From positions 1 to 27,631 of IMG/VR virus record IMGVR_UViG_3300031999_000163: a DNA stretch of 27,631 bases. One strand, written 5' to 3'. This document shows, in pieces, positions 129 through 27,631 of the stretch. Each line of letters starts with the position of its first letter. The stretch's first letter is position 1. The notes below the pieces were generated by a model. That model did no database searches. It was given only the letters and a program-made list of their open reading frames with translations, and was not told the DNA's origin. Made by a program: the position numbers and the translations under genes. The stretch comes from a virus.

Positions 129-854
129 ATGAACTGTAAATTATGTAGCACACCAACCAAATTGAATGCACATCGGAAGTTCAAGATGTTTTGTAGTCTG
201 GCGTGCCGATACACTAACTCTGGATTCAAGCCTGGAAACACCATGAGCATCGGTAGACCAAAGGGGTCAAAGAACCGAAATCCCTATCCCATGACTGATG
301 CGGTGGTCCGTAGGATGGGGATATTGAATTCTCGTACACGGATAGGCACACCCCATACTGAGGCGTATAAGGAACACATGTCCAAATTGACCTGTGAGAG
401 GATCAAAATGAATGGAAAGAGCGTTAGTTACAAAGGAATCTTCACCCCCAAGTTTCCTAAAAAATATGTCGGAAATGTGAACAACATTGTATACCGAAGT
501 CACTGGGAATTGAAGATTATGCACCAGTTGGATCAATCACCGGGGGTGATAGAATGGGCAAGTGAGGAATTGGTGATCCGATATTATGACCCTGTTAGAG
601 AACGATTCAGAAGGTACTTCCCCGATTTCCTCGTCAAATCTAAAACAAAGGATGGATTCAAGAACACAATCATTGAGATAAAACCAGACTACCAGACCAA
701 TCTTAGGGCTGCGCCGCAACGAAAAACCAGACAGTATCTCAAAGAGGCTATGGATGTGGCAACGAATCAGGCAAAATGGAAGGCGGCAAAGGAGTTCGCA
801 GACGAACAGGGTTGGGAGTTTGTAGTTCTCACAGAAAAGAACTACTCTTTCTGA
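129..854 (+). CDS. 4: Head completion nuclease, T4 gp4 (gp50/gp4) family, with zinc-finger N-terminal extension
   Basis: Residues about 100-235 match the T4 gp4 head-completion family. They include 'YKGIFTPKFPKKYVG', 'YRSHWELKIM' (122-131), 'YFPDFLVK' (163-170) and 'IEIKP' (182-186). The pattern E127...D166...E183-x-K185 is the PD-(D/E)xK nuclease arrangement also seen in TnsA-like enzymes. T4 gp4 is about 150 residues, so this protein carries roughly 100 extra N-terminal residues. The extension has a four-cysteine cluster C3-x2-C6-x15-C22-x3-C26 (zinc finger), an AT-hook-like GRPKGSKN (42-49), and a basic helix after 'GTPHTEAYKEHMSK' (73-86) that resembles NUMOD3-type DNA-binding motifs of homing endonucleases. 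In T4 this protein acts late in head filling, before tail joining. GAAGGA at 119-124 supports the start. Core identity is secure; the function of the extension is inferred. Confidence 0.85.
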   Translation: MNCKLCSTPTKLNAHRKFKMFCSLACRYTNSGFKPGNTMSIGRPKGSKNRNPYPMTDAVVRRMGILNSRTRIGTPHTEAYKEHMSKLTCERIKMNGKSVSYKGIFTPKFPKKYVGNVNNIVYRSHWELKIMHQLDQSPGVIEWASEELVIRYYDPVRERFRRYFPDFLVKSKTKDGFKNTIIEIKPDYQTNLRAAPQRKTRQYLKEAMDVATNQAKWKAAKEFADEQGWEFVVLTEKNYSF

Positions 855-9049: not shown

Positions 9050-9054
9050 TCCCT

Positions 9055-11412: not shown

Positions 11413-11416
11413 ATAG
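11408..11416 (+). promoter_or_regulatory. Late promoter CATAAATAG before gp8
   Basis: The motif overlaps the stop codon of the gp7-like gene. The predicted start near 11421 leaves a 15-base leader carrying the ribosome site AAGGAA (11425-11430). Confidence 0.7.
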
Positions 11417-11435
11417 AACATTACAAGGAAACACT

Positions 11436-12767
11436 ATGTCCAATTCTTCGATCTCTCGGCGCCTTGGCTATGAAGGAGCCTTTACACTCTACAGCGATCT
11501 CTCCACGTCATCAAACGACGCAATGGTGGGATACGTCATGCTTGGGCGAAATGTTGCCTGGCCCGCAGACCCCACACCCGATGTGATCTACGATACGGAG
11601 AACACACTGTTTGATACCTACAACAATTTCCTAGGGGGAAAGCGAATCACTGGTAATGATATCGCCTTGGTGATTCCGCGTAGGAACTGGACCGCGAATA
11701 TCCGATACACCCAATATGACGATCAGAGTAATGCGCTATTCACCTCTGCGAATGCGATGTATGTGTATACCTCAACAGGAAGCGTCTATAAGTGTCTCAA
11801 CAATGGTAATAATGCCCCCTCCACGATTGAACCCGCTGGCAACTACACCAGCGCGAATGGATTCATCAGCCCTGGTGATGGGTATGTGTGGAAGTATATG
11901 TTCAAGGTGCCAAGCACCAGCAAGTTCTTGACCTCAGCGTGGATACCGGCTCCTACCACTCAATCCGCTGCCTATTTTGGATTTGCGAACAATCTTGTCG
12001 CCGGAGCGATTACTCGCTTGCAAGTCACCTCCAATGGTGCGGGATGGTATCAAGTCAATACTGCGGTGATAATTACAGGTTCAGGCACCGGTGCGAATGG
12101 CGCACCTACCGTAACAACAGGCAACCTTCGGTCTGTCGCCTTGGATGCACATGGATCAGGGTATACTCGCCAGAATGTCAAAGTCACGGTGGTCGGAGTG
12201 GGTTCAAACGCCGCTGTGCGTCCAATACTCTCCCCGTATGGTGGGCATGGGTTCAATCCTGCGCGGGAACTAGGGGCGAATTGCATGATGATCTCCGTTC
12301 AGATTGGGTTCCCCGATACCACAGAGGGAGCCACGTTGACCGCAAATAACGATTTCCGACAAGTCGGAGTCCTTTTGCGACCACATAAATATGGTGAGAA
12401 TGTCGCAGTCACCTCAGCGAATGCGAATATCGCGGTTACAATGGTTACCCAATTGCTGCTTACTTCGGGACCAGGATATATCAAAGACGAACTGGTGTAT
12501 CAAGGCGCAAATGTCTCGCTGGCGAATTTTACCGCAAATGTCTCGGATATCTTCTCCAATGCCGTTGAAACATCAAATGTGCATGGTTCAGTGGTCGCCG
12601 GAGCCGTGTTGACGGGCAATACATCAGGAACCGTGCGAACGGTGGTTGCTGCCACATACCCAGGATTGGAAAAGGAAACGGGTGATCTTGTGTTTACGGA
12701 CAATCGCGCACCAGTGACCCGCGTGGTCGGGCAATCCGAGGTTATCAACATTGTATTGAACTTCTAA
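11436..12767 (+). CDS. 8: Baseplate wedge subunit, gp8-like
   Basis: The protein has 443 residues against 334 in T4. Conserved gp8 segments include 'YVMLGRNVAWPAD', 'NFLGGKRITGNDIALVIPRR', 'NWTANIRYTQYDDQS', 'MYVYTSTGSVYKCLNNGNNA' and 'GDGYVWKYMFKVP'. Residues about 196-268 add two glycine-rich repeats ('SNGAGWYQVNTAVIITGSGT' and 'DAHGSGYTRQNVKVTVVGVG') of the type also found in the gp6, gp7 and giant proteins here. gp8 is a dimer in the T4 wedge that bridges gp7 and the outer proteins. It has its own late promoter and good ribosome site. Confidence 0.88.
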   Translation: MSNSSISRRLGYEGAFTLYSDLSTSSNDAMVGYVMLGRNVAWPADPTPDVIYDTENTLFDTYNNFLGGKRITGNDIALVIPRRNWTANIRYTQYDDQSNALFTSANAMYVYTSTGSVYKCLNNGNNAPSTIEPAGNYTSANGFISPGDGYVWKYMFKVPSTSKFLTSAWIPAPTTQSAAYFGFANNLVAGAITRLQVTSNGAGWYQVNTAVIITGSGTGANGAPTVTTGNLRSVALDAHGSGYTRQNVKVTVVGVGSNAAVRPILSPYGGHGFNPARELGANCMMISVQIGFPDTTEGATLTANNDFRQVGVLLRPHKYGENVAVTSANANIAVTMVTQLLLTSGPGYIKDELVYQGANVSLANFTANVSDIFSNAVETSNVHGSVVAGAVLTGNTSGTVRTVVAATYPGLEKETGDLVFTDNRAPVTRVVGQSEVINIVLNF

Positions 12768-12776
12768 GACAACGTG

Positions 12777-12785
12777 CATAAATAG
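12777..12785 (+). promoter_or_regulatory. Late promoter CATAAATAG before the giant wedge gene
   Basis: The motif lies in the 39-base gap after gp8. The predicted start near 12790 coincides with the first base of a long purine-rich ribosome site (AAGGTGGGAG), 17 bases before the ATG at 12807. Confidence 0.7.
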
Positions 12786-12806
12786 AACAAAGGTGGGAGC
12801 AATTTC

Positions 12807-15800
12807 ATGGCTATTGATCTGTCACAAAATCCGTATTACGACGACTTTGACCCAACGAAGAATTATCACAAGATTCTCTTTCGTCCATCCTATGCGGTGC
12901 AGTCGAGAGAATTGACACAAGCCCAAACGATTCTTCAGGATCAGGTTAGTAAATTCGGAAACAGCATTTATCAGAATGGGTCCATCGTTACGGGTGGGCA
13001 GACCATGTTGGAATCGACTTCGACCAAATATATCTGCGTCGAAGCCACAGACCCTACGGGTGCCGTGGTCGATGTCGCCAATTTCATTGGTAAATTTATT
13101 GTTGATAACGAGACGGTCCCAAGAGGTATTCGCGCCTACGTTATTGGTGGTGCCATTGCGACTCTGACTTCTCCAACGTATCTCATTGTCAAATACACCT
13201 CTGGGCAGATTTTTGACGCGACTCTCGTTCAGCCAATCAAAACGGACGACAGTGCCTATAGCGTGGCGATCATTGCGAGCCTCAGCACCCCAACCAACTT
13301 CACGGATGTTGTTTCGGGGCTGAAGTTTGGGGATGCGTCTATTTGCAGTATTGATGAGGGTGTATTCTATGTTGATGGATACTTCGTCCAAGTTTCCCCA
13401 CAAACAGTAGTCTTGGATGCGTTCAGCAATACCCCAACCTACCGCGTAGGTCTAGAGATTGGCGAAGTGCTTGTTGACGAGACGATGGATGCGACTCTTC
13501 TTGACCCCGCACAAGAATCCACGAACTATCAGGCTCCTGGTGCCACTCGTTATCAGATCAACCTCACCCTTGTCAAACGTGCTCTCACGTCTGAAGATGA
13601 TACGAAGTTCATTGAATTGATTCGTGTGACTGGTGGAACACTGACAAAGAAGGTCGTGTATCCAGTGTATTCCGCATTGGAAGAGACCCTGGCTCGTCGC
13701 ACTAACGATCAATCAGGCTCCTTCACGGTGCGCCCATTCAAGATTGCGACCACTCCCCATGCGACCTACGCGAATGCCTACAACATCGTCATTGAAGCGG
13801 GGAAGGCGTATGTGCAGGGATATGAATTTGAAACGATTGGACCTACAACGATCAAGGCAGAACGCTCACGAACAGCCGCCAATGTTACCAATTACAACAG
13901 CACGATTGATTATCAGAATTGGATTGAATTCACAAACCTCGTTGGTCCAATTCCATTCAAGACTCTCCAACCAGGAGTCCTGCATTGTGTAAGCACTGCG
14001 AACATTGCCATCGCTAATGCTGCGGTTGCTGCCAATACCACAATAGGCACTGTCCGTATTCGTGCGCTGGATTATCAGAGTGGTGCCAACGGCACGTCTA
14101 TCATTACTGCGGTATGGCGAGCGTATGCGTTTGATGCGAATGTATCGGAAAGTCAAACCTGCAACTGCGGCGCGACAGGTTCCGCGAACACAATGTTCCT
14201 CGCACCAAATTTCTCCGCTATTGCAAATGCGTATGTGGGAGTGAAGTTCACGATCACCACCCATGCAGGTGTCGCAGTCAATGAAACTCATACGATTGGA
14301 CGCTATGAAGGGTCCAATAACAAAGCCTTTTTGCAGGGGTCGGAGACCTTTGCCTTCGGCACGCCAACAACAGCGACCAAGTATCGTTTTGATTATGAAT
14401 TCAAAGATGTTGAAGCCTTGGTATACGCGAACACCTCAGTCAATCAACATCTCTTTTCTACCACGATGGATGTCAACTCGTCCAGCAAGAATGCACTGTT
14501 CGTTGATGGTATCCTCTCTGATCCATATGAAGGTGCCTTTCTCAGTGATACGGGATTCAACCGACTCATTATGGAATTGCCGTATCCTACCATTGCCGAT
14601 CAAGCCGTAGTCGGAGGCTCCCCACTCACGAACACAGAATACTTTGGTCGCAAAGTTTACACAGGGCAGGGGTTCACACAAAATGTAACCACGATCACCA
14701 GTGCTGCGGGTATCACGTCCGCTGTCAATGGAACCTTGTCGGGGTCCGATGCGATAGACAACATCCTCGTTGTCGTGAAGAACAACACCGGGGCTTCGGT
14801 TGGCAACAATCAAGTTATCAACTTCTCTTCGGGCAATCCAGCAGGCAACACGGTTGTTGTCAGCACCGTCAGCAATACCTCAACATGGGTCATCACTGTT
14901 CCAAACATGAATAGTGCATCGGCGGCTGATGTCTATGTCAAGGTGAAATTGCCATATTCCCATGCACTCGGAAATCTCCTCAAGAGTAAGACCGCACGTA
15001 TTGCGAATGTGGCGAGTGGATTGAACTCCGGTGGCACGCAGATTGCCGATGCGACGGGACTCGTTCAGTGGTATTCACAGGGAGCAGGCAACTTGGGGGC
15101 GCAAATCACGATCTATGCGAACTCCGCAGCGTGGCTCAATCTCAAGGACCCAAGCAAGTCGCAATCACTCTTCACGTCCGATGTCACAAGACTTCGTAAG
15201 GTCATCGATGTCGGTTCCAATCTGATTGAAGATGGTAACGTGGCTATTGCCGCTGATATCACCAGTCGCTACATATTGGATTCTGGGCAGCGCGACAACT
15301 CCTACGATCATGCGAGCATCACCCTAAAGCCACAGTCACAAGGTCCAAGCGGTAACGTAGTCATCTATGTTGATTACTTGACCCATTCGGGATTAGGCTA
15401 TTTGACCGTGGATTCGTATGCGTCCGCCAACATTGCCTACGGAAACATTCCGTCCTACACGTCAGCTACGACTGGGCAGGTATTCAACTTGCGCGATTGC
15501 ATCGATTTCAGACCTCGTAGACAGGATGCAGATTTCAATAACATTTTTGATGAAGAGGTTTTTGGGGTATCGGGACTCACGTTTGAGACAGACTTCTCCT
15601 ACTATCTTGCTCGCATTGACAAGATCATCCTTACGAAGGATCGCACCTTTGAAGTCTTGACGGGTGTGCCGTCTCTGTTCCCAGTCAGCCCATCAGATAA
15701 AGACAATGCCATGACATTGTATACGTTGGTGCTTCCTCCCTACACGAACACCACTGGGGAAATTCGTCAACGCTATAATGACAATCGCCGCTACACAATG

Positions 15801-18800
15801 CGCGACATTGGCACACTTGAAAAGCGTATTTCAAACCTGGAATACTACACGTCCCTGAACTTGCTTGAACAAACGGCTAAGAATCAGGAAATTCAAGATG
15901 ACACAGGAGCGAACCGTTTCAAGAATGGTATCCTGGTTGACCCATTCACCGGACACAAGATCGGGGATGTGTTGAATGTAGACTACCTCTGTTCCGTTGA
16001 TCCTCAGAATCAGGAATTGCGTCCAGCCTTCAATCCTCGCAGTCTCGACCTGGAATTGAGCGCAACAAATTCCACAGATTATGCACGTATCGGTGCCTTC
16101 TTGACACTCCCATATACGGTGGTGACATTCCTCGATCAGTCTATCGCGTCTAAAGCAATCAACGTCAATCCGTTCAACACAGTCTCGTTCATTGGGCAGA
16201 TCAAACTTGATCCAACATCAGACAATTGGGTAGACAGAAACCAAGTTCCTGATGTGAATGTGAACTTGGAAGGCGATGCTGATGCGTGGGAAGCTCTTGC
16301 GTTTGATGTCAACAAGTCAGCAGCAGGTTCAAAATTTGGTTCCACAACTTTCGGCACGGTCTGGAATGACTGGAAAACCACATTCTATGGAGAGAAGAAA
16401 CAACCGGATCAGATTATCACCCCAGGCTGGCAGGGATGGTTGGGTCCAGTCGGGCACTATATTCCTGTCTATGGCAACGTCGTCAAGCGCAGCACGACAG
16501 AAATCACACAGAAATCAGCACGAACAGGAACAAAGAGTCAGTTTGGAACCGAAGTCATTACTGAATCCATCGGGAACAAGGTCAAGGATGTCTCGGTTAT
16601 TCCATACATCCGTTCACGCGGCGTGTTGTTTGTAGGGAAGATGTTTGCCCCGAACACTGCCCTCTATGCCTTCTTTGATGAAAAAGCGGTGACGAATTAT
16701 TGCAACCGTCTGAATGTCGTGAAAGTCGCCAGCACTACTGTAGTCTACAGAGACAACTATCAGGATGCTGAATCCGTGCGAGTATGGGACCCCGCGAGAG
16801 GAGCAAATGCCGCCTTCGGTATTGTGGTTCTCAGTCGCAACGAATCCACACACACCAATGTTAGCATTGTCAGCGTGACTGGTGGTGACGATAATAACGT
16901 GGCGAATGCGTATTTCATGCACTCAAGCAACTCCACCTTCTTGATTGGGGAAACCAGTGGCGCGAACTCGCGTATCTCTGGCTACTATCATAACACAGGA
17001 TTCGCACAGAACGCGAATGTCAGCAGCGTCTTATTGTCACATGATATTGCAAATTCCAATGTCGCGTTCTCCAACACCTTCCTTGTTGGGCAGACGATTT
17101 ACTTTACAGCGGGATCGGGTCTTGGACAATCCTCTGTAATTACCGCATACAATGCGAACACTCGCAACGTGTCCTTCAGCCCTTCGTTGACCACCGCACT
17201 TGGAGTCGATACGGCGTATTCTATTGGGCAATTCACCTCAGATTATCGTGGTGAGTTTGGGGGTATCTTTGTCATTCCTTCAACGGATGCCGTAAGATTC
17301 CGCACTGGGGATCGTCAATTCACCTTTGTCGATTCGTTAGCTGGAACCCTTGAAGGATCAGGCACGAACGGATCAGTCAACTATCAAGCCTCTGGACTCT
17401 TGCAGACTTCAGAGAACACGATCATCTCTACTCGCGTCCCTGTGGTACAGCGCACGGTGCTCAATCAAGCCAAAACCACTGTAACCAGCAAGATCACGGA
17501 TGCCGCGATTGGAAGAATACAAGTTGGGTATTGGGACCCTCTCGCCCAGACCTTCTTGGTCGATCAAACATTCCATCCATCGGGTGTCCAGATTACGGGT
17601 ATTCGTTTGCTTATCAAGAGCACTGATCCAAACATTCCAATGGAAATGCAATTGCGTCCTGTCGTCAACGGATTCCCGCATTCCTCCGCAGTCATCCCAG
17701 GTTCCGATGTGGTTATCAATGCGAGCGATATTGTAACCTGTTCTGAAGAAGCGTTGGCGGCAAAGTATGTGGCGGGAGGCAATCCTTTGGATGATGCCAC
17801 CATGTATACGCAAGTCAACTTCAGTGGACCGGTGTTCTTGCAGCAAGGCGCGGAATACTGCATCGTCCTGATGGCAAACTCCGTCAAGTATCAGGTGTAT
17901 GTGTCACGCATGGGCGACAAGATTCTGGGCACCGAGCGATTGATTTCCTCACAGCCCTATTTGGGGGTGTTGTTCAAGTCACAGAACTCAACCACCTGGA
18001 ACCCAATTCAGGAAGAGGATTTGACCTTCCGATTGCTCTATGCACAATTTGATAAGACCGTGCAATCTAACATTGAATTCCAGTTGTCCTCATCAAACGC
18101 GATCACAGCCAATGTGCCGTTGGATACGTTCTATGTCTCCTCTGGAAATCTTGTGTTGCCAAACACCAGCGTTGATGCGATGTTTGCAACCACCACGGCT
18201 ACAGGGGTCAAAGAGGGCAACAAGATCATCCCATTGGATGAAAACATTTACTTTGATGATACGTTGGGTCGCCGAGTCGCGTCCAGTGTGACATCCTCAT
18301 TCAAGTTACGACTTTTGCTCTCCTCGCAGAGTGTTGATGTATCGCCCGTGGTTGATATGGACCGACTCTCTCTGTTGGGTATCGAGAACCTTGTCAACAA
18401 CTTGCAACTGAGCAACAGTTCAGTAGTAGTTATCAGTTCCAGTAACAACTGGTTCAGTGCCGCAGGACTCAGCGTAACGATCTCAGGTGGAGGCGGAAGC
18501 GGAGCCAATGCGTATATTGCGAACACGCAAATTGATAGTAACAATCATGTGCTCGCTAACGTGGTCGTAGATTCTAATGGTAGCGGGTATACTACGTCCC
18601 CAACCTTTACGATCTCCGGTAACGCGAGCATCACTGCCAACATTCAGTGCATTGGAGAAGATCGTTCGTCTGGTGGACCAGCCTGGGCGCGTTACATCAC
18701 TCGTAAAGTAACCCTGGCTGATGGATTGGATGCAGGAGACTTCCGCGTATTCTTCGCTGCCTACAAGCCTTCTGTGGCGAACATCTATGTCTATTATAAG

Positions 18801-19076
18801 ATTCTCTCCTCGGATGATGCTGAGGTGTTTGATAATAAGGGTTACCAACTCATGACGATCATTCAGGGCGCGAACAACTTGTCCTTGAACCAAGATGATG
18901 TGAAGGATTTTGTGTATGCCCCAGGCGCCGGGAATATCGCAGATAACCGAGTCCAATATGGATCGTTTGCCAGCTTCAAATACTTTGCGGTCAAGATTGT
19001 CATGGCATCGACCGATACAACGAAGGTCCCGCGTATCAGAGACTTCAGAGTTGTGGCACTTCCATCTCTCTCATAG
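12807..19076 (+). CDS. Giant DUF4815-type virion protein, probable outer wedge / fibre connector (gp10 position)
   Basis: The N-terminus 'NPYYDDFDPTKNYHKILFRP' followed by 'YAVQSRELTQAQTILQDQVS' is the hallmark of DUF4815 proteins, large virion proteins that follow gp8 in many T4-like phages of aquatic hosts. At 2089 residues it takes almost a quarter of the window. Other conserved blocks are 'FRPRRQDADFNNI' (near 900), 'TMRDIGTLEKRISNLEYYTS' (about 998-1017), 'VIPYIRSRGVLFVGKMFAPN' (near 1265) and 'GYWDPLAQTFLVDQTFHPSG' (near 1575). Glycine-rich GxGY repeats lie near 1869-1949. By position it likely replaces T4 gp10, perhaps with gp9 and gp11, linking wedges to fibres. No signal peptide, membrane helix or catalytic motif is evident. 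Confidence 0.8.
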   Translation: MAIDLSQNPYYDDFDPTKNYHKILFRPSYAVQSRELTQAQTILQDQVSKFGNSIYQNGSIVTGGQTMLESTSTKYICVEATDPTGAVVDVANFIGKFIVDNETVPRGIRAYVIGGAIATLTSPTYLIVKYTSGQIFDATLVQPIKTDDSAYSVAIIASLSTPTNFTDVVSGLKFGDASICSIDEGVFYVDGYFVQVSPQTVVLDAFSNTPTYRVGLEIGEVLVDETMDATLLDPAQESTNYQAPGATRYQINLTLVKRALTSEDDTKFIELIRVTGGTLTKKVVYPVYSALEETLARRTNDQSGSFTVRPFKIATTPHATYANAYNIVIEAGKAYVQGYEFETIGPTTIKAERSRTAANVTNYNSTIDYQNWIEFTNLVGPIPFKTLQPGVLHCVSTANIAIANAAVAANTTIGTVRIRALDYQSGANGTSIITAVWRAYAFDANVSESQTCNCGATGSANTMFLAPNFSAIANAYVGVKFTITTHAGVAVNETHTIGRYEGSNNKAFLQGSETFAFGTPTTATKYRFDYEFKDVEALVYANTSVNQHLFSTTMDVNSSSKNALFVDGILSDPYEGAFLSDTGFNRLIMELPYPTIADQAVVGGSPLTNTEYFGRKVYTGQGFTQNVTTITSAAGITSAVNGTLSGSDAIDNILVVVKNNTGASVGNNQVINFSSGNPAGNTVVVSTVSNTSTWVITVPNMNSASAADVYVKVKLPYSHALGNLLKSKTARIANVASGLNSGGTQIADATGLVQWYSQGAGNLGAQITIYANSAAWLNLKDPSKSQSLFTSDVTRLRKVIDVGSNLIEDGNVAIAADITSRYILDSGQRDNSYDHASITLKPQSQGPSGNVVIYVDYLTHSGLGYLTVDSYASANIAYGNIPSYTSATTGQVFNLRDCIDFRPRRQDADFNNIFDEEVFGVSGLTFETDFSYYLARIDKIILTKDRTFEVLTGVPSLFPVSPSDKDNAMTLYTLVLPPYTNTTGEIRQRYNDNRRYTMRDIGTLEKRISNLEYYTSLNLLEQTAKNQEIQDDTGANRFKNGILVDPFTGHKIGDVLNVDYLCSVDPQNQELRPAFNPRSLDLELSATNSTDYARIGAFLTLPYTVVTFLDQSIASKAINVNPFNTVSFIGQIKLDPTSDNWVDRNQVPDVNVNLEGDADAWEALAFDVNKSAAGSKFGSTTFGTVWNDWKTTFYGEKKQPDQIITPGWQGWLGPVGHYIPVYGNVVKRSTTEITQKSARTGTKSQFGTEVITESIGNKVKDVSVIPYIRSRGVLFVGKMFAPNTALYAFFDEKAVTNYCNRLNVVKVASTTVVYRDNYQDAESVRVWDPARGANAAFGIVVLSRNESTHTNVSIVSVTGGDDNNVANAYFMHSSNSTFLIGETSGANSRISGYYHNTGFAQNANVSSVLLSHDIANSNVAFSNTFLVGQTIYFTAGSGLGQSSVITAYNANTRNVSFSPSLTTALGVDTAYSIGQFTSDYRGEFGGIFVIPSTDAVRFRTGDRQFTFVDSLAGTLEGSGTNGSVNYQASGLLQTSENTIISTRVPVVQRTVLNQAKTTVTSKITDAAIGRIQVGYWDPLAQTFLVDQTFHPSGVQITGIRLLIKSTDPNIPMEMQLRPVVNGFPHSSAVIPGSDVVINASDIVTCSEEALAAKYVAGGNPLDDATMYTQVNFSGPVFLQQGAEYCIVLMANSVKYQVYVSRMGDKILGTERLISSQPYLGVLFKSQNSTTWNPIQEEDLTFRLLYAQFDKTVQSNIEFQLSSSNAITANVPLDTFYVSSGNLVLPNTSVDAMFATTTATGVKEGNKIIPLDENIYFDDTLGRRVASSVTSSFKLRLLLSSQSVDVSPVVDMDRLSLLGIENLVNNLQLSNSSVVVISSSNNWFSAAGLSVTISGGGGSGANAYIANTQIDSNNHVLANVVVDSNGSGYTTSPTFTISGNASITANIQCIGEDRSSGGPAWARYITRKVTLADGLDAGDFRVFFAAYKPSVANIYVYYKILSSDDAEVFDNKGYQLMTIIQGANNLSLNQDDVKDFVYAPGAGNIADNRVQYGSFASFKYFAVKIVMASTDTTKVPRIRDFRVVALPSLS

Positions 19077-19088
19077 GAATGTGATGAT

Positions 19089-19328
19089 ATGATGATAAAT
19101 ACAGTGCAGATTGACAATAATCCTGATCTTGTGCGCGACATGGCTTCAAAGGCTATCATCAGCACGGATGCCATAGGGCTTGGACGCTATAAAGAACAGC
19201 GACGAAAATCATTAGCGCAGAAACAGGAAGTTGAAGAAACCAAACAACGATTGGTCTCTATTGAGAGAGAGATGGACAGTCTGAAAAAAATCGTGCACGA
19301 ACTCTCGACCATGAGGAGTAAGAGCTAA
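19089..19328 (+). CDS. Small coiled-coil protein between wedge and fibre genes
   Basis: The 79-residue product has a short polar N-terminus and a charged, heptad-like helix over about residues 35-74 ('QKQEVEETKQRLVSIEREMD', then 'SLKKIVHELS'), which predicts a coiled coil. Its TAA stop overlaps the ATG of the first fibre gene (TAATG), so it should be made in step with the fibres. A fibre-attachment trimer or fibre-folding helper, with the role but not the sequence of T4 gp57A, is a reasonable guess that the sequence does not prove. The ATG at 19089 is chosen because AGGA at 19075-19078 is well spaced; the ATG at 19092 is equally possible. Confidence 0.65.
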   Translation: MMINTVQIDNNPDLVRDMASKAIISTDAIGLGRYKEQRRKSLAQKQEVEETKQRLVSIEREMDSLKKIVHELSTMRSKS

Positions 19329-21619
19329 TGTCTATCGGACAAATTACAACAGCGAACACTTTCGGTCAACTCATTACCGCCGTTGCCGCGATGATTGCGG
19401 TTGCCAACAACCTCACCGATGGACCACAGGTTTCGTCCAATGCGGCATGGACGTTCACGAACCCAGGGGTCGGGGTCAATGTCGGCAACACAGCCCTTAT
19501 CAAGACGGCGAACATCCAGTTCATCAATTCAGGATTTGCGAACATTGTATCGGGGAACATTGCGAGCATCAATACGTCCTCTGCGAATATCACGACCGCG
19601 AATGTGGTGGGTGCCACGATCACGAACATCATCAGCACAGATCATTTGAGTGCAAATGCGAATATCTCAGGACTCTTGCAAGTCAGCGACCGCATGAACG
19701 TGTACTCTGCGAACATTCAATCTGCGAACATCGGTTCCTTGGCACTCACAACGCTCTCCGTATCAGAACTAACTGTGCCTGTGCTGAACGCGAGTTTTGC
19801 GAACATCACCTCTCTGTCGGTCACCGGAACGTCTCAGCACCTTGCAGTCATTGCTACGTTGGTCACGACAGATAATTGCAATGTTAGTATCTTGAATGCG
19901 ACAACTGCGAACATCACAGGTATGACCTTTGGCACCATGAACACTGGATTTAGCAATACCACGTCTGCGAATATCGTGTCCATGAACGTAGGATTTGCGA
20001 ACATCGTATCTGAAAATGTCATGTCTGCGAACATGGGATTTATGAATGTCAGCAATTCATTTATCAGCACACTGAATGCGTCATCGGGAAATATCACGTC
20101 CTTCTTTGCGAACACTGGAAACATTCTCTCCTGCAACATTGCATCGGGCAACTTCACCGGTCGCTTGAATGTCGCGTCCACTCCAACAGCGAACCTGGAA
20201 GTCTCCACGAAAGCCTATACGGATATTGCCGCGAATTTATGGCAGCAATTATACACCACGAAAGGCGACATACAGGTTGCGAGCGCCGCGGCGAATGCCA
20301 TTAGATTTGCTGTTGGAACAAACGGACAGTCTCTTGTCGTGGATACGCAAACTTCTTCAAGTCTCCGTTGGGCGAACCGTGGACCAGCACAGACGTTCCG
20401 TGGTCTGTCACTACAAACATCCGTCACTGATTTCAAAAACTCCAATGCAAACAACATCATCCTTGAGCATGTGGATGAAATTGTCATGGATGATGGTGAA
20501 TCGGTCACCGGTTGGACAGACAAGAGTATGATTATCAATACCGCTAACGCTTCAGGTAACATTGGAGGACTCGACACAGGTTCCATGATTGCCAACACGT
20601 GGTATGAAATTTACGCCATTCGCAAGCGTGTTGATGGCACAAAGGGATTCATTATTCATCGAGCACTAGATCGCAACGTCGATCAGAACACCGCAGGTGT
20701 CGCTCAGTTTGCTCATAATATAACCGTACAAGTCAATAAAGTCACCACTCCCAATGTGCGTGTCGCGCAGAGTTTTGTGGCGAACGTCTCTGGGCCACTC
20801 ACAAGTTTTGAAGTGCGAATGTTTAAGACTGGTACCCCCACAGGAAACGTGTGGATCAATCTTCATGCCAATACCGCAGGTGACCCAGGAGCCACACCAC
20901 TTGCCACGAGCCGAAAATATGACGTGGCGCGTATGGCTGTCACCACACACTATCCAATTCGGTTTGTCTTTGATTCAACGGCAAACGTGGTTGCAGGAAC
21001 TTCGTATTTTGGTGTAGCGCAAACTGATTTCACAGCTAGTGATACCAACTTTATCACCCTAGAAGGATCAACAACGGCATATTTCAATGGTCTTACCAAA
21101 GGCAATACTGGTACAGCGTGGGTTTCTTTGGCTCCTGGCGTAGGTACCCTCATTTTCAAAGAATATGTGGAAGCTAATAGCACGGCATTGACATTCCCCG
21201 CTGGTTACGACCAAAAATGTTTGGTGGGTTATACTGCCACCGATCAGGCGGGAAAACTTAGAGAATTCACACAACGGGACCGCACCATCACATGCCCGTT
21301 TAGTAATCAGTGGAATAGTGCCAGCCTTATTGGAACAGATAAAGAAGTGATGGACCTCACTGCCACCCTACCTCCGGTGACTGTCATGGCATCGTTTTTC
21401 TTCTTTACTGGCGCAATCAACTCAATGAGTGTGGGTAGGCTTCATGCGATTGATCTAATAGTTGCCGTGACAGAAAACTTGTTGGGGGGCATCACATTTG
21501 GTGCTACGTATGGCGGCACAACACCAACTGCCTTTCCTTTAGTGTGGGTTGAACATCAGGCAATCAATACTCGTATCACGACAAGTGCCAAAGTCTATAC
21601 GGCAAGTTTTACGTTCTAA
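19328..21619 (+). CDS. Tail fibre protein 1 (long ANI-repeat form)
   Basis: The 763-residue protein begins with its own N-terminal cap (residues 1-58, 'MSIGQITTANTFGQLITAVA'), unlike the three fibres after it. Residues about 60-295 are a long run of five-to-eight-residue units ending in AN(I/V/M), likely a beta-helical shaft. A hinge 'PTANLEVSTKAYTDIAAN' (about 286-303) and a small 'KGDIQVASAAANAIRFAVG' module follow. The C-terminal part begins near 379 ('VDEIVMDDGESVTGW', 'GGLDTGS', 'WYEIYAIRK'), is interrupted at about 448-616 by a sandwich domain ('QSFVANVSGPLTSFEVRMFK', 'TGTPTGNVWINL'), and resumes with 'PAGYDQKCLVGY'. The sandwich resembles carbohydrate-binding, choice-of-anchor-R-type domains. 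Likely a host-receptor-binding fibre, coupled to the coiled-coil gene upstream. Confidence 0.8.
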   Translation: MSIGQITTANTFGQLITAVAAMIAVANNLTDGPQVSSNAAWTFTNPGVGVNVGNTALIKTANIQFINSGFANIVSGNIASINTSSANITTANVVGATITNIISTDHLSANANISGLLQVSDRMNVYSANIQSANIGSLALTTLSVSELTVPVLNASFANITSLSVTGTSQHLAVIATLVTTDNCNVSILNATTANITGMTFGTMNTGFSNTTSANIVSMNVGFANIVSENVMSANMGFMNVSNSFISTLNASSGNITSFFANTGNILSCNIASGNFTGRLNVASTPTANLEVSTKAYTDIAANLWQQLYTTKGDIQVASAAANAIRFAVGTNGQSLVVDTQTSSSLRWANRGPAQTFRGLSLQTSVTDFKNSNANNIILEHVDEIVMDDGESVTGWTDKSMIINTANASGNIGGLDTGSMIANTWYEIYAIRKRVDGTKGFIIHRALDRNVDQNTAGVAQFAHNITVQVNKVTTPNVRVAQSFVANVSGPLTSFEVRMFKTGTPTGNVWINLHANTAGDPGATPLATSRKYDVARMAVTTHYPIRFVFDSTANVVAGTSYFGVAQTDFTASDTNFITLEGSTTAYFNGLTKGNTGTAWVSLAPGVGTLIFKEYVEANSTALTFPAGYDQKCLVGYTATDQAGKLREFTQRDRTITCPFSNQWNSASLIGTDKEVMDLTATLPPVTVMASFFFFTGAINSMSVGRLHAIDLIVAVTENLLGGITFGATYGGTTPTAFPLVWVEHQAINTRITTSAKVYTASFTF
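19505..20210 (+). repeat. ANI-repeat shaft region (protein-level tandem repeat)
   Basis: More than twenty imperfect units encode (S/T/F)AN(I/V/M) spaced five to eight residues apart, usually written with GCGAACATC or GCGAATATC. Spacing and intervening residues vary, so this is a coding repeat and not a CRISPR-like array. Shorter runs occur in the next three fibre genes (near 21930-22000, 23860-23970 and 25720-25810). Confidence 0.8.
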
Positions 21620-21626
21620 TGTGACT

Positions 21627-21635
21627 CATAAATAC
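21627..21635 (+). promoter_or_regulatory. Late promoter CATAAATAC before tail fibre 2
   Basis: The motif lies eight bases after the stop of fibre 1 and seven bases before the ATG of fibre 2. The predicted start near 21640 leaves a leader of only about three bases, with no room for a ribosome site. Confidence 0.65.
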
Positions 21636-21642
21636 CTTCACT

Positions 21643-23658
21643 ATGGCTTTTATATGGGACACCAACCCTAACAGAATTACTCCTCCACCGATTCTCCCTG
21701 TCCCTGTAGGGGATGGGGAGATGTCCTATGAGGCAAAGGAGGTTGCCAACAGTGTGAATGTCGATCCCATCTATGGGGTCGGCACCCTTCTCTGGAATAT
21801 CGCCACACCCGATGCTGATGGTGACTCCGATGGTGACTTCGACATCATCTATCAACTCCCTTCTCTCAATGTCAAAGACATCCACGTTACCCACCTAGAA
21901 GCGGATAACGTCACCGTCTACTTCAATGCGACGATCAATACGGCAAACATTGGGGTTGCGACGATCAATACTGCCAATATCGTCAACGCCACGATTGCCA
22001 ATGGTCGTATGGGTGTCAATCCGACCGCGAATCTTCAGATTGCCACGAAAGAATACGTGGATGCCCTCGCTGCGAATTCCATTCCTCTTGGGGGCAATCT
22101 TCAATTGCTCATTCAAGCTGCGGGTGACCTGCTTGTGGGGGTCTCTGATAATACCGCAGAACGACAGCCTGTGGGTGTAAGTAATGGTAGCTTGCTTCTC
22201 GCTGGTGGAACAAGTAACACGGGGGTTTATTACAGTGCGGGTGGGATCGGCGGCACGGGCACTCATCGTGGGTTGCACATAGGTTCCAATATGTTCGGCG
22301 GATCACTGATGAATACAGAAGTGTTGTTGGTGTCGGTTGAAGAAATTGTCATGGATGATGGAACAAGTGTCAGAACAGGATGGGATGGGCTGACTGCCTC
22401 CATCTCGTCGAATGTAGAAACCTCTGGAATAGGATTCTTGGATACGGGCGTTGTGGCGGCTCAAACATCATATGAGGTGTGGGCCGTTCGCAGTAGTAGC
22501 AATGGGGCACAAGGACTCCTTCTACACCGCGCTCCAGAAAGTCGGGTTGATGTGAGTTTTCGAGCAGTCATTGCTACTGACCGCAGATTGAATTATTCTC
22601 ATACAGTGGGTGCGATCACCACGATCAATGTCAGTCAAAGTTGGCTCGCAAACAGCAATGGTCCATTGACAGGTATTGACATAACACTGGCCCGCACAGG
22701 GGCACCAATCGGAAATATATGGTTGACGTTTGAAACACTTGTGAATGGGAACGCTAGCGGAAATGTGCTGGCCACCAGTCGTTATTTCGATACAACACGT
22801 ATAGGATCTCCAGTCCCCGACGTAAATGAACATACCAGAATGCGATTCCCGTTTGATACTACAGCCAATGTCGTATCGGGAACCAATTATGCGTTTGTAG
22901 TTCACGTTGATTATCCACGAGGCAACTCAGTCAATCCAAATTACATAACGGTGTGGGGGACATCCCCAGGACTCACTGGTTCCACCACTTATCCCAACGG
23001 GGAATGCAAAAATTTTAGTGCCAATACGAACACTTGGGCGATGGCAAATGCCTCAACCGGCATATTCATTCCTTCGGGTCCTCAAGACCTCTACTTCAGA
23101 ACCATTGTGGAGAAGTACAATGTTGATCTCCTCATGCCAACAGGATACGATCAAAAATGTCTGTTGAGTTATTGTGCAGTCACGAATGCGCCTCCGGCCG
23201 GAGGTACCGTAGGAGACGGACTCACTAATGGTTGGGGTCCCAGGATTGGACCTTACTGGCAATATGGAAGAAGAATCACAGTCTGCCAACATACAGAATG
23301 GCAAATGAACTATAATGGAATCTATGGTGGTGGCCAGCCACTCGAATTCCAGACAGGAACGGGGTGTGAAGCCATTGAATTGAAATGGTTGGTTCCTCCT
23401 ACTCCTTGTTTTGTCACAATAATGCACTATTCAGGTGTCGCGGGCCCTGCCGCTGTAGGTGTGGGCAGGCTCGATACCACAGACATGTGGAGCCTTTCGA
23501 GTTCACGTACACTGGTAGAAGTAGATGGGCAATACCAGGCAAATACCAATTTTGGAATTATGACTTCAATTGGTCCTATTCTTGTTGAATTCGGGACCAT
23601 GATGATAAGACAGCCTGCTGGTGTTGGTCAGTCATGGATACAGGAGATAGAATTCTAA
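21643..23658 (+). CDS. Tail fibre protein 2
   Basis: The 671-residue protein opens with a cap shared with the next two fibres: MAFxWxTNPN, a proline-rich stretch, then 'EMSYEAKEVANSVN' and 'IIYQLPSLNV'. A short ANI-repeat shaft (about 95-125) leads to the hinge 'PTANLQIATKEYVDALAAN' and the 'GDLLVGVSDNTAERQPVG' module (about 160-177). From near 232 ('VEEIVMDDGTSV', 'GFLDTGVVAA', 'SYEVWAVRSSSNGAQGLLLH') runs a common phage fibre C-terminal domain. At about 300-488 it is interrupted by a sandwich domain ('SQSWLANSNGPLTGIDITLA'), then resumes with 'PTGYDQKCLLSY'. The insertion in the terminal domain also has a glycine-rich loop (near 515-535). Likely receptor binding. No ribosome site is visible; the late promoter nearly touches the ATG. 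Confidence 0.8.
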   Translation: MAFIWDTNPNRITPPPILPVPVGDGEMSYEAKEVANSVNVDPIYGVGTLLWNIATPDADGDSDGDFDIIYQLPSLNVKDIHVTHLEADNVTVYFNATINTANIGVATINTANIVNATIANGRMGVNPTANLQIATKEYVDALAANSIPLGGNLQLLIQAAGDLLVGVSDNTAERQPVGVSNGSLLLAGGTSNTGVYYSAGGIGGTGTHRGLHIGSNMFGGSLMNTEVLLVSVEEIVMDDGTSVRTGWDGLTASISSNVETSGIGFLDTGVVAAQTSYEVWAVRSSSNGAQGLLLHRAPESRVDVSFRAVIATDRRLNYSHTVGAITTINVSQSWLANSNGPLTGIDITLARTGAPIGNIWLTFETLVNGNASGNVLATSRYFDTTRIGSPVPDVNEHTRMRFPFDTTANVVSGTNYAFVVHVDYPRGNSVNPNYITVWGTSPGLTGSTTYPNGECKNFSANTNTWAMANASTGIFIPSGPQDLYFRTIVEKYNVDLLMPTGYDQKCLLSYCAVTNAPPAGGTVGDGLTNGWGPRIGPYWQYGRRITVCQHTEWQMNYNGIYGGGQPLEFQTGTGCEAIELKWLVPPTPCFVTIMHYSGVAGPAAVGVGRLDTTDMWSLSSSRTLVEVDGQYQANTNFGIMTSIGPILVEFGTMMIRQPAGVGQSWIQEIEF

Positions 23659-23659
23659 C

Positions 23660-25471
23660 GTGGCTTTTTTTTGGAACACCAATCCGAATCCACCTGCACG
23701 GGAGATGCCTCAAGCGGTACCTCCAGGTGAAGTCACATATCAAGTTCATGTCATTGCGAACAGTGTTGACCCAAAGTGTTCAGTCACCTACAATACCACC
23801 AATGTAGGTTATGATGAATTGTGTCAACTTGCTAGTACCAATGTCGGTGTAGCGAATTTTACCAATGCGTTCTTTGATAATTTCACTGCTAATACCGCGA
23901 ATATCAGCACGGCCACGTTTGACACTGCTAACATTCAAACTGCGAATATCTTGAACGCAAACATCAGATATGGGTATGTGGGATCAGACCCCACTGCGAA
24001 CCTCGGAATCGCCTCCAAGCATTATGTAGATGCGGCCATGGCGAATGTGCCGGCTGGTGGTAGTGATTTGCAAAATATCATCGATGCCAGAGGTGACCTC
24101 CTTGTAGGAATTTCCGCAAACACTGGGGGGCGACTCCCTGTGGGTAATTCGGGGGATACGCTGATCGCAGACAGCACCACCAGCACCGGACTTCGTTGGA
24201 GGTCCACAGGTAGTGATGCGGTATTAAGTCAAAGTGTACTCAATTTGACATTATTTACTCACTATGACCCCTGGCTTAGGAATCGACAATTGTTGCTCTA
24301 CCGAGCCGATGAAATTGTAATGGCCAGTGGTCAACGTGTGGCAGAGTGGAGTAATGTGATTGTGGATATTACTCTCTCCGGTGCGGGAGGACTAGATACG
24401 GGGGTGGAAGCAGCTTCGCATTGGTATGAAGTTCATGCGATTCGTAACAGCAGCAATGGCGCAACCGCGTTAATTTTACATCGTGCACCCGAAACGATCA
24501 TGGACCAATCATTCACCACCACAACAGATAATGGAAGAAATCTGAGAAATGTTGGGCAATTTCCACTTTTATCACAAAGTTTTATTCCAGCGGTTGCCGG
24601 CCCACTCACTAGCGTAGAAATTGAAGTCAGCAAGACAGGATCGCCAACGGGTTTAATTTGGGTGACTCTGGAATCTGATGATGCGAATAATGTAGGATTC
24701 CCTGATGGTGTTGCGCTTGCCACAAGTCGTGTCATGGATGTTTCTAGGTTGCCAACCGATAAAGCACGAATAAGGTTCCTGTTTGACACAAACACTAGCG
24801 TATCGTTGAGCACCACGTATCACCTAGTCTACCAAAGTGATTATACGATCAGTGATGCGAACTATACAACTATCTGGGGTATCACAGCGGGCGGCTACAC
24901 GAATGGAAGGGCTAACGAATATCATTCTGGGTTTTCTATATGGCGGCAGTGCGTTTCGAACGGGGGGCCTGGAGATTTTTGGTTCAAGACATTTGTGCAG
25001 GGAACACCATTCACTGCGGTAACGCTACCCTCTGGGTACGATCAGCGATGTCTCATCAGTTACGTCTATAATGATAGTGCCAGCAATTTTAAGAAATACA
25101 GTCAACGGGACCGTCAATTGTTCTATGGAGTATCGATGGATTGGAGGGCATTCACGTCCGTCACAGGACTCATTGAGGCAGTAGATTTGACAGCATTTAT
25201 ACCCCCAGTGGTGGGTTTGGTGGGATTCATGGTGCAATCTCCACCGGTAAATCTGGCGAGGTATATACCGATTGGAGGGGTTGCCTGCACGGATTTGTCT
25301 CTTGATAACGTCGCATCCACTGGGGCAATGTCTGCGAACACTTATCGTATTTCCGGTGGAACTGGAACAACAATTACAAATTATGGTCCGATTGTAGTGG
25401 AGAAACAAGTAATTCTCACTCGCACAAAAGCCGCCAACACGCGGCTATATGTTCAAAGTGTGAGTTTCTAA
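23660..25471 (+). CDS. Tail fibre protein 3 (GTG start)
   Basis: The 603-residue protein starts with GTG one base after the previous stop, and its cap 'MAFFWNTNPNPP' aligns with the caps of fibres 2 and 4, which fixes the start. It has the same order of parts: 'PGEVTYQVHVIANSVD', a short ANI shaft (about 75-112), hinge 'PTANLGIASKHYVDAAMAN', 'GDLLVGISANTGGRLPVG' (about 145-162), the domain beginning 'ADEIVMASGQRV' (near 215), an inserted sandwich domain at about 280-450 ('SQSFIPAVAGPLTSVEIEVS', 'KTGSPTGLIWVTLES'), and the closing 'PSGYDQRCLISY' with 'FKKYSQRDR'. No promoter motif or clear ribosome site precedes it, so translation probably depends on coupling to fibre 2. Role inferred as receptor binding. 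Confidence 0.8.
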   Translation: MAFFWNTNPNPPAREMPQAVPPGEVTYQVHVIANSVDPKCSVTYNTTNVGYDELCQLASTNVGVANFTNAFFDNFTANTANISTATFDTANIQTANILNANIRYGYVGSDPTANLGIASKHYVDAAMANVPAGGSDLQNIIDARGDLLVGISANTGGRLPVGNSGDTLIADSTTSTGLRWRSTGSDAVLSQSVLNLTLFTHYDPWLRNRQLLLYRADEIVMASGQRVAEWSNVIVDITLSGAGGLDTGVEAASHWYEVHAIRNSSNGATALILHRAPETIMDQSFTTTTDNGRNLRNVGQFPLLSQSFIPAVAGPLTSVEIEVSKTGSPTGLIWVTLESDDANNVGFPDGVALATSRVMDVSRLPTDKARIRFLFDTNTSVSLSTTYHLVYQSDYTISDANYTTIWGITAGGYTNGRANEYHSGFSIWRQCVSNGGPGDFWFKTFVQGTPFTAVTLPSGYDQRCLISYVYNDSASNFKKYSQRDRQLFYGVSMDWRAFTSVTGLIEAVDLTAFIPPVVGLVGFMVQSPPVNLARYIPIGGVACTDLSLDNVASTGAMSANTYRISGGTGTTITNYGPIVVEKQVILTRTKAANTRLYVQSVSF

Positions 25472-25501
25472 TTTCACTATCAATGAAGAGGATGAATTAA
25501 G

Positions 25502-27433
25502 ATGGCATTTAACTGGAACTCAACTCCAAATCCCCCAACCCCAATCGTTCCGATTCCAGTTCCACCTGGGGAAGTCACCTATGAGGTGAAGTTGGTGGCA
25601 AACACTGTAGACTACGGTGGAACCGTGCGCTACAATACTGCTAACCATTCCTATGATGTGATATATGAATTCCCCACACTCAACGTCACAAACGGGGTGT
25701 TTGAAAACGGATTCTTTGAGAGCGCGAACATTGGAAATGCCACAATCAATGTTGCCGCAATCAATCATGCGAGCATCAATACGGCGAATATCACCAATGC
25801 CAGCATCACGTTTGGATATGTCACAGGTAGTCCTAATGCGAACATGGGTATCGCGTCAAAATTCTACGTGGATAATGCAGTAGCCTCGATCTCTGGTGGC
25901 TCCGGTCCCGATACTACTGCCAATCTCTTTGTTGCAAAGGGTGATCTCCTTGTAGGAATTTCCCCAAACACAGCGGTCAGATTTCCTGTGGGTGCCGATG
26001 GATTGTCACTTATAGCTAATCCCGCTCAAACATTGAAACTCAACTGGGCAGCATTTTCTAGTTCACAAAAAGTCGATGGGTTATTGATAGGCACCCATCA
26101 CCACCCTACGCTCAAATTCTCACAGGTATTATTAACTCACGCTGAGACGATTATTATGGATGACGGGACGCCGGTTCCCGATTGGAATAACTTAGTCGCG
26201 GATATTACTGTTTCGGGTGCAGGTGGTTTGGATAGTAATAGTGCAGAAGCGGCAAACACCTGGTACGAGGTATGGGCGATACGCAATAGCAGTACGGGCG
26301 CGAAAGCCCTTCTCCTTCATCGAATGAAGAATCACGCACTCGATCAATCATGGGACGCTACGCTTAGTGGGCAAGAAAGTTCTACACTGGGTAGTGTTAA
26401 TCCGAACATGACGAACGGCGATCAACGATATGTGACGAAAGTTTCACAAAGCATTGTTGCACATGATACGGGACCAATGCGGTACATTGAATTGAAAATA
26501 ATCAAAAGTACACCACGACCATCAAATCTTTACATGACCATTGAGACAGATGATGGATTTGGTAATGCGAGTGGTACGGTGCTGGCCACCAGTCGAAGCA
26601 TTTCAGATGATGCTTGGGGTATCCAGAGCACCGTCACTCGGTTTGTATTTGATACAGCAGCGACGGTGACGAACGGAAGCAAGTACCTCATGGTGTGTAA
26701 TTATGACGGACCCACTGACAATCTCAGCCTTTCTTGGAATGGATATCAAGTACAGGGTAACATAAGGACCCTGGGTCCAGGTCAGCAGCGGTGGATGGCG
26801 AATGTGGGGTATAACAATCCAGGTTTTGGGTATCATCCTTATGACCTCGATCTCGGAACCATCACTCTCGGATATGGCGATGCACGACAATATAACGTGG
26901 CGTTGGGCACATGGAAGTTATTAGCTAATACGACTGGGTTTAGTGGACCCTCGGACTTTTTCTTCAGAACGTATATTGAGCACAACAATACAGCCCTCGT
27001 TCTTCCTACAGGATACAACCAGAAATGTCTTTTAAGTTACGTGCATAACAATACATCCAGCAATTTCAAAGAGTATCACCAGCACAATCGATACATGGTC
27101 ATGGGGTATGACCCAGATTGGTTTGTGTTTACTGTACCGAGCACTGGTGTATTGGCGTTGGACATACAAAATTTTGTTCCTCCTATTTTCTGTCATGCCT
27201 ATTTTATGGTGCAAGCAGAACAGAATTTTGGTGCTAACATGGGATCATCGTCTATGATGGACATTAGCCGTGAGGTCGGGGTCAACGATTATCTCATGAC
27301 CTTAGGTAGTTTTCCACACGGATCTGGGTGTTGGATTTATGGGCCCGCCGTGCCCGTTGAAGGGTCGCAGGTTGTGAATATCGCATCACTTATTATTGGC
27401 TCAGTTGTCTATTTGACAGGAATACACTTCTAA
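25502..27433 (+). CDS. Tail fibre protein 4
   Basis: The 643-residue protein repeats the scheme of fibres 2 and 3: cap 'MAFNWNSTPNPPTP', 'PPGEVTYEVKLVANTVD', a short ANI shaft (about 73-105), hinge 'NANMGIASKFYVDNAVAS', 'KGDLLVGISPNTAVRFPVG' (about 145-164), 'AETIIMDDGTPVPDW' (near 213) and 'GGLDSNSAEAANTWYEVWAI'. The sandwich domain (about 276-495) is the longest of the four, with an extra glycine- and tyrosine-rich stretch near 420-460. The protein closes with 'PTGYNQKCLLSYVHNN' and 'FKEYHQHNR'. It has a 30-base gap upstream with an AGAGGA ribosome site (25487-25492) but no late motif. An identical 18-mer with fibre 3 and 17-mer with fibre 2 point to duplication and exchange among the fibre genes. 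Confidence 0.8.
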   Translation: MAFNWNSTPNPPTPIVPIPVPPGEVTYEVKLVANTVDYGGTVRYNTANHSYDVIYEFPTLNVTNGVFENGFFESANIGNATINVAAINHASINTANITNASITFGYVTGSPNANMGIASKFYVDNAVASISGGSGPDTTANLFVAKGDLLVGISPNTAVRFPVGADGLSLIANPAQTLKLNWAAFSSSQKVDGLLIGTHHHPTLKFSQVLLTHAETIIMDDGTPVPDWNNLVADITVSGAGGLDSNSAEAANTWYEVWAIRNSSTGAKALLLHRMKNHALDQSWDATLSGQESSTLGSVNPNMTNGDQRYVTKVSQSIVAHDTGPMRYIELKIIKSTPRPSNLYMTIETDDGFGNASGTVLATSRSISDDAWGIQSTVTRFVFDTAATVTNGSKYLMVCNYDGPTDNLSLSWNGYQVQGNIRTLGPGQQRWMANVGYNNPGFGYHPYDLDLGTITLGYGDARQYNVALGTWKLLANTTGFSGPSDFFFRTYIEHNNTALVLPTGYNQKCLLSYVHNNTSSNFKEYHQHNRYMVMGYDPDWFVFTVPSTGVLALDIQNFVPPIFCHAYFMVQAEQNFGANMGSSSMMDISREVGVNDYLMTLGSFPHGSGCWIYGPAVPVEGSQVVNIASLIIGSVVYLTGIHF

Positions 27434-27477: not shown

Positions 27478-27631
27478 ATGGCAGGCTACGTTCCCTTAGA
27501 AATTGAACAATGGTCCACGTTTAGTAGGGTCATTACAGTCAAACAAGCTGATGGAAATGCTCAAAATCTTGTTGGCTACGTGGCTAATACGCAGATGCGT
27601 CGATCACACTACTCCATCAATTCCAACACCG
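27478..27631 (+). CDS. Virion structural protein, N-terminal part only (cut by window end)
   Basis: The first 51 codons are open and run off the window. The product begins 'MAGYVPLEIEQWSTFSRVIT' and contains 'GYVANTQMRRSHYS'. That layout, a short beta-strand opening followed by GYxxxxQMRRSxYS, is common in small virion proteins found near fibre genes in T4-like phages of aquatic bacteria. Their exact role is not known to me. A late promoter and ribosome site directly upstream support the start. Confidence 0.65.
   Translation, partial: MAGYVPLEIEQWSTFSRVITVKQADGNAQNLVGYVANTQMRRSHYSINSNT

Follow-up and report, generated by a model that had tools for sequence, protein, structure and literature searches.

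Four tandem tail fibre genes with a predicted lectin-like sandwich inserted into the same C-terminal domain in a T4-like phage

The fibre locus

The stretch of DNA analysed here (the window) comprises 27,631 nucleotides, a virus record of 27.6 kb from an uncultured virus of bacteria. T4-type neck and baseplate genes occupy its left part, encoding a TnsA-like head closure protein, a DNA end protector, a tube cap, gp53, a hub/gp5 OB protein, gp25, gp6 and further wedge proteins. They are followed by a VrlC/DUF4815 baseplate gene and then by four paralogous fibre genes (763, 671, 603 and 643 aa). The VrlC protein is a homologue of phi812 ORF65 (PDB 9euf, E 1.7e-39), and the array is best explained as the fibre gene set of a contractile, T4-like phage whose baseplate is of the VrlC type. 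Within the left-hand genes, a cysteine-rich N-terminal extra precedes the TnsA-like part of the head closure protein (window positions 129-854). Glycine-rich GSGYTSAPTVTITG-type modules, exemplified by residues 522-595 of the gp6-like protein, are common to the wedge proteins and VrlC (7004-18700) and also occur in several PHROG structural families. The features of the locus are as follows.

12807..19076, + strand: VrlC/DUF4815 baseplate protein, 2089 aa, directly upstream of the array (Pfam DUF4815, E 4e-67)
17511..18086, + strand: VrlC lectin-like domain, residues 1569-1760 (phi812 9euf alignment, hhalign with the insert profile)
19328..21619, + strand: fibre gene 1, 763 aa, distinct N-terminus and extended ANI shaft (ORF, alignment, trees)
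20453..20662, + strand: fibre 1 opening element (20-sequence alignment)
20663..21193, + strand: fibre 1 insert, 177 aa (20-sequence alignment, profile scores)
21194..21616, + strand: fibre 1 closing element and tip (20-sequence alignment)
21643..23658, + strand: fibre gene 2, 671 aa (ORF, alignment, trees)
22318..22530, + strand: fibre 2 opening element (20-sequence alignment)
22531..23133, + strand: fibre 2 insert, 201 aa (20-sequence alignment, profile scores)
23134..23655, + strand: fibre 2 closing element and tip (20-sequence alignment)
23660..25471, + strand: fibre gene 3, 603 aa, GTG start (ORF, alignment, trees)
24287..24484, + strand: fibre 3 opening element (20-sequence alignment, hhalign)
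24485..25024, + strand: fibre 3 insert, 180 aa, the sandwich being model residues 90-263 (alignment, AlphaFold2, VIA)
25025..25468, + strand: fibre 3 closing element (tip domain about 25109-25465, matching the Bd2133 fibre tip 8ok3)
25502..27433, + strand: fibre gene 4, 643 aa (ORF, alignment, trees)
26123..26323, + strand: fibre 4 opening element (20-sequence alignment)
26324..27001, + strand: fibre 4 insert, 226 aa (20-sequence alignment, profile scores)
27002..27430, + strand: fibre 4 closing element and tip (20-sequence alignment)
27478..27631, + strand: start of a small conserved ORF (MAGYVPLEIEQ..), which closes the array in relatives and is cut here by the contig end

The four fibre genes aligned with one another from end to end. 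In every copy an opening element (GGLDTG..WYEV..LLHR) was followed, after 177-226 residues, by a closing element made up of LPxGYDQKCLxSY and a tip domain, and none had a short loop linking the two halves. The initial annotation had described four tandem fibres with an insert between opening and closing parts in each, and the alignment placed the borders close to its estimates. Two of its descriptions were refined: the shared ANI shaft and KGDLLVG module hold for genes 2-4, whereas gene 1 has a different N-terminus, the variant KGDIQVA and a much longer ANI shaft; and the PxGYDQKC motif does mark the closing part, but this continues into a tip domain of its own, some 120 residues long. In relatives kept out of profile building (L022-L037), opening, insert and closing followed in the same order, the insert scores lying mostly at about 88-177 bits and reaching 212 bits in L036. 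As these sequences were absent from the profiles and still repeat the order, it is not due to chance.

Insertion site and fold of the insert

An opening-part consensus, written by eye from the alignment, was used to find named phages with the motif. Insert-free relatives include phages PPpW-3, YeP1, IPK and FLC9, in which a short loop connects both flanks; IPK, YeP1, PPpW-3 and others showed GAGGMDTGT..YAIYNPTTG..ALL, the short loop and then MPSGYTASGLVS. With IPK as query, 72 further insert-free loci were retrieved. Among the 61 ORFs with both halves measured, 59 had no extra residues between them, one was 1 residue short and one, in L141, had 65 extra. Since the whole inserted profile did not bridge the gap to the insert-free profile, the flanks were compared separately by hhalign, and both matched their insert-free counterparts (opening 98.0%, E 2.5e-13; closing 96.5%, E 8.4e-10); the insert gave no profile-profile match with either insert-free half (<0.3%). 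The four fibres are an inserted variant of an insert-free LDTG/PSGY fibre C-terminus, and relatives without the insert, which the initial annotation had expected, do exist with contiguous flanks. The L141 fibre (ORF 1398-2915) is otherwise insert-free; its 65 extra residues are a different segment, lie in a hairpin neighbouring the insertion site and apparently represent an independent insertion.

The C-terminus of fibre 3, modelled by AlphaFold2 as a single chain with 45 rows, returned a pLDDT of 91.8 and a pTM of 0.87, and the insert-free relative L073 values of 93.5 and 0.89. Strand order was identical in the two models. The insertion-site loop of the insert-free model lies between strands 93-99 and 120-129, while the inserted model has about a dozen more strands between strands 82-88 and 275-284, the insert forming a discrete beta-sandwich in a single hairpin loop. 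The models thus bear out a separate inserted domain, as first proposed, rather than one continuous fold. The insertion is predicted to sit outside the tip, in a hairpin of the small beta-domain beneath it, so that each chain would carry two candidate binding modules. The fibre 3 tip (model residues 297-415) matched the Bdellovibrio Bd2133 fibre tip 8ok3 (Z 8.8, rmsd 3.1, 103 aligned) and appears to share its fold; this Z is slightly above the usual background, and the match of the insert-free tip (Z 10.7) is clearer. For both models, the first match in the viral library was the insert-free PPpW-3 fibre.

The nearest solved structure to the insert (model residues 90-263) was the phi812 DUF4815 protein 9euj (Z 17.6, rmsd 2.4, 156 aligned), and the second-best match was the Cwp84 lectin-like domain 4ci7 (Z 14.4, rmsd 2.9, 149 aligned), whose likeness extends over the whole domain. 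Further VIA matches were a capsid chain of PBCV-1 (Z 14.2), the central fibre of Douge (Z 13.8) and the tail tip of Bxb1 (Z 11.8), and PHR domains, which are non-lectins, have the fold too (Z about 10). At sequence level, choice-of-anchor R (NCBIfam NF041539, curated cut-off 30 bits) was found above cut-off in the inserts of relatives L028 (32.3 bits) and L037 (30.4 bits), and array inserts of L003, L032 and L033 scored under the cut-off; a search of the window's own proteins with this family gave no match. The resemblance to choice-of-anchor R claimed originally is therefore upheld through the inserts of relatives, though not in the window itself. No useful match of the insert was obtained against Pfam, PHROG or PDB sequences, and a tblastn search of 50,697 phage records with the fibre 3 insert found nothing. 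Pfam matches to NIL, Luteo_P1-P2 and TilS_C and matches of the shafts to solenoid-type PDB chains were judged chance or repeat matches.

A fourth matched stretch of phi812 ORF65 (784-953) aligned with residues 1569-1760 of VrlC. When the profile of this domain was built from rows of this phage group and 15 diverse phages, hhalign matched it with the insert profile over 137 columns (95.7%, E 8.8e-9), and control comparisons with the opening and closing profiles gave 0.3-0.4% only; an earlier profile of 16 near-identical rows had been weak against the insert (8%, E 0.0043). Judged by these profiles, VrlC, immediately upstream of the array, carries a domain homologous to the fibre inserts, which the initial annotation had missed. 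A Cwp84-like domain has previously been reported in VrlC proteins of Bacillus phages (PMC11406892).

It could be argued that opening, insert and closing form one continuous ancestral fold and that the insert-free fibres lost the middle, as alignments alone leave the polarity of insertion and deletion unproved. We regard this as highly improbable: insert-free fibres are far commoner, as the loci from a single query show, and fold confidently on their own; the sandwich occurs by itself in VrlC, Cwp84 and Douge; and in L141 the hairpin next to the site holds an extra segment of another kind.

History and variation of the array

Seven further contigs (L001-L004, L029, L032, L033) carried the four fibres in this order; five of these contigs are large (135-179 kb) and returned exactly four fibre matches apiece. 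In trees of the flanks and of the inserts alike, genes 1, 2, 3 and 4 clustered by position and not by phage, with supports of 100/99, 96/89, 93/92 and 98/95 for the flanks and 100/99, 96/91, 100/96 and 100/99 for the inserts. Inserted fibres present as single copies in phages of other types formed one group, separate from the array genes; the root of the trees is inferred. In L025 (3114-7755), gene 1 and just one further fibre are flanked by the same neighbours, VrlC and the small ORF at the end; this two-fibre locus represents an intermediate or a reduced state and could have lost genes. Among present-day phages there are fibres without the insert, inserted fibres in single copy, and loci of two and of four genes. 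The position-wise trees and the two-fibre locus give good support to the original proposal of one insertion followed by gene multiplication.

The array is old. A recent tandem duplication was ruled out, as the paralogues are 28-35% identical to gene 1 and the position clades predate the phage split, and an assembly artefact was ruled out by the repetition of the array in the seven other contigs. ORFs resembling GIY-YIG-type homing endonucleases (by eye) flank the array in L002 (5050-5766, 14127-14642) and L025 (2515-3132).

Identity between phages at the same position was 0.43 for the insert, 0.33 for the tip and 0.56 for the opening in genes 2-4, and 0.57, 0.38 and 0.65 in gene 1. Inserts and tips were more variable than the scaffold, which fits host-facing surfaces and loosely constrained ones too. 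In genes 2-4, the likeness of anchors and shafts within a phage exceeded the relabelled expectation (0/500 relabellings), and no within-phage effect appeared in inserts (251/500) or tips (157/500), counts that serve as a guide and not as probabilities since relabelling leaves some phage relatedness. The anchor-to-hinge length was nearly equal across genes 2-4 of each phage, and in L004 it was shortened in all three to the same length. Fibres 2, 3 and 4 of L004 (8127, 10001, 11763) are nearly identical over roughly their first 40 residues.

Two alternative readings bear on these data. According to the first, the sandwich is structural, docking the fibres together or to VrlC before contraction and making no host contact. 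The homologous domain in VrlC, the closest fold being that of a phi812 baseplate protein and not of a receptor-binding protein, and the protein contacts made by the Cwp84 lectin-like domain (PMC4089489) are in its favour. We consider it unlikely though not negligible, because the insert adjoins the tip and is distant from the N-terminal anchor, is more variable than the surrounding scaffold (0.43 vs 0.56-0.60) and lacks the within-phage matching that an internal contact would show.

The second reading takes the products of genes 2, 3 and 4 as subunits of one obligate hetero-oligomeric fibre rather than as three fibres. Their common anchor type, near-equal shaft lengths with equal shortening in L004, and anchors and shafts matched within a phage beside unmatched inserts and tips would all fit, and, if true, co-evolving paralogues with matched anchors and shafts would show different sandwiches and tips together beside VrlC. 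However, docking to a common kind of site would produce the same pattern, and so would gene conversion at the 5' ends, which is a simple explanation of the matching given the nearly identical N-termini in L004; moreover, L025 has a single member of the trio. The hetero-oligomeric fibre thus appears decidedly improbable.

Proposed function and comparison with known systems

The reading that we favour, and hold to be probable, is that of a loop-inserted sandwich in a multiplied fibre gene, the sandwiches acting as accessory adhesion modules near the tip. The ancestral fibre end would have consisted of a small beta-domain and a terminal tip domain, and a sandwich of the Cwp84/choice-of-anchor-R kind would have entered one hairpin loop of the small domain once. 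The inserted gene would then have multiplied, probably via a two-gene state, into four lineages inherited in fixed order. Each fibre is most likely a trimer through shaft and tip, with three sandwiches that would stand out to the side immediately beneath the tip. These would serve as accessory adhesion modules, and the tip would provide a putative second binding site. Four fibres would thereby present four different surfaces, presumably with a different receptor each, attached beside VrlC, itself bearing the same kind of domain.

The predicted glycan binding and the multi-receptor host-range array suggested in the initial annotation are read from two things, the fold and the position of the insert. 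The fold is common to domains with and without proven sugar binding. Calcium has been described for the Cwp84 lectin-like domain, but its sugar binding is unproven and the authors leave its function open (PMC4089489); that domain has no known ligand, and glycan binding by the inserts is a prediction. In the Douge central fibre, carbohydrate-binding-type domains bind mycobacterial host glycans (PMC13033339), and in related phages the fibre genes downstream of VrlC constitute a host recognition cluster (PMC7029224).

The locus offers a clean case of growth of an adsorption apparatus, in which a binding-type domain entered a fibre loop, the gene was multiplied and the copies diverged in place while their anchors remained matched. 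The VrlC homology suggests one sandwich family for baseplate and fibres, so that the same ligands could be used to test both.

Several known systems share parts of this organization. The insert-free C-terminus (PPpW-3 tail-collar fibre V5YST5, YeP1, IPK, FLC9) has the opening strands, LPSGY strand, tip and strand order of the array, with a loop of about 20 residues in place of 177-226. The Cwp84-type domain of DUF4815/VrlC proteins (phi812 ORF65; Deep-Blue gp176 and Vp4 gp120, PMC11406892) has the fold of the insert and detectable homology to it; there it is part of a baseplate protein, whereas here it also lies within each fibre, beside the tip. The beta-sandwich tip of the Bdellovibrio Bd2133 (MAT) fibre (PMC10769870) resembles that of the array (Z 8.8-10.7) with a sequence identity of just 10-12%, but it belongs to a cell fibre of a predator and an inserted domain has not been reported for it.

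The branched tailspike complex of Ackermannviridae (CBA120 TSP1-4, PMC11414711) likewise comprises four tandem adhesin genes with conserved N-termini and diverged C-termini, and the family also has a VriC protein. TSP1-4 are enzymatic tailspikes joined by gp10-like domains, whereas the array encodes fibres with an inserted sandwich; a search of the four fibre sequences for the gp10-like (XD domain) family, at sequence level only, gave no match. In the evolved Dit of Gram-positive siphophages (PMC8540738), a carbohydrate-binding-type sandwich has likewise been put into an older tail protein, but the carrier is the Dit hub protein and not a fibre, and no gene multiplication accompanies it. The host recognition cluster of T4-like cyano- and pelagimyophages (PMC7029224) also has fibre genes directly downstream of VrlC and is described as hypervariable, whereas the first four genes of the array are fixed in number and order in eight contigs. 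The array combines known elements in a new way, as an adsorption apparatus of several fibres into which binding-type domains have been inserted.
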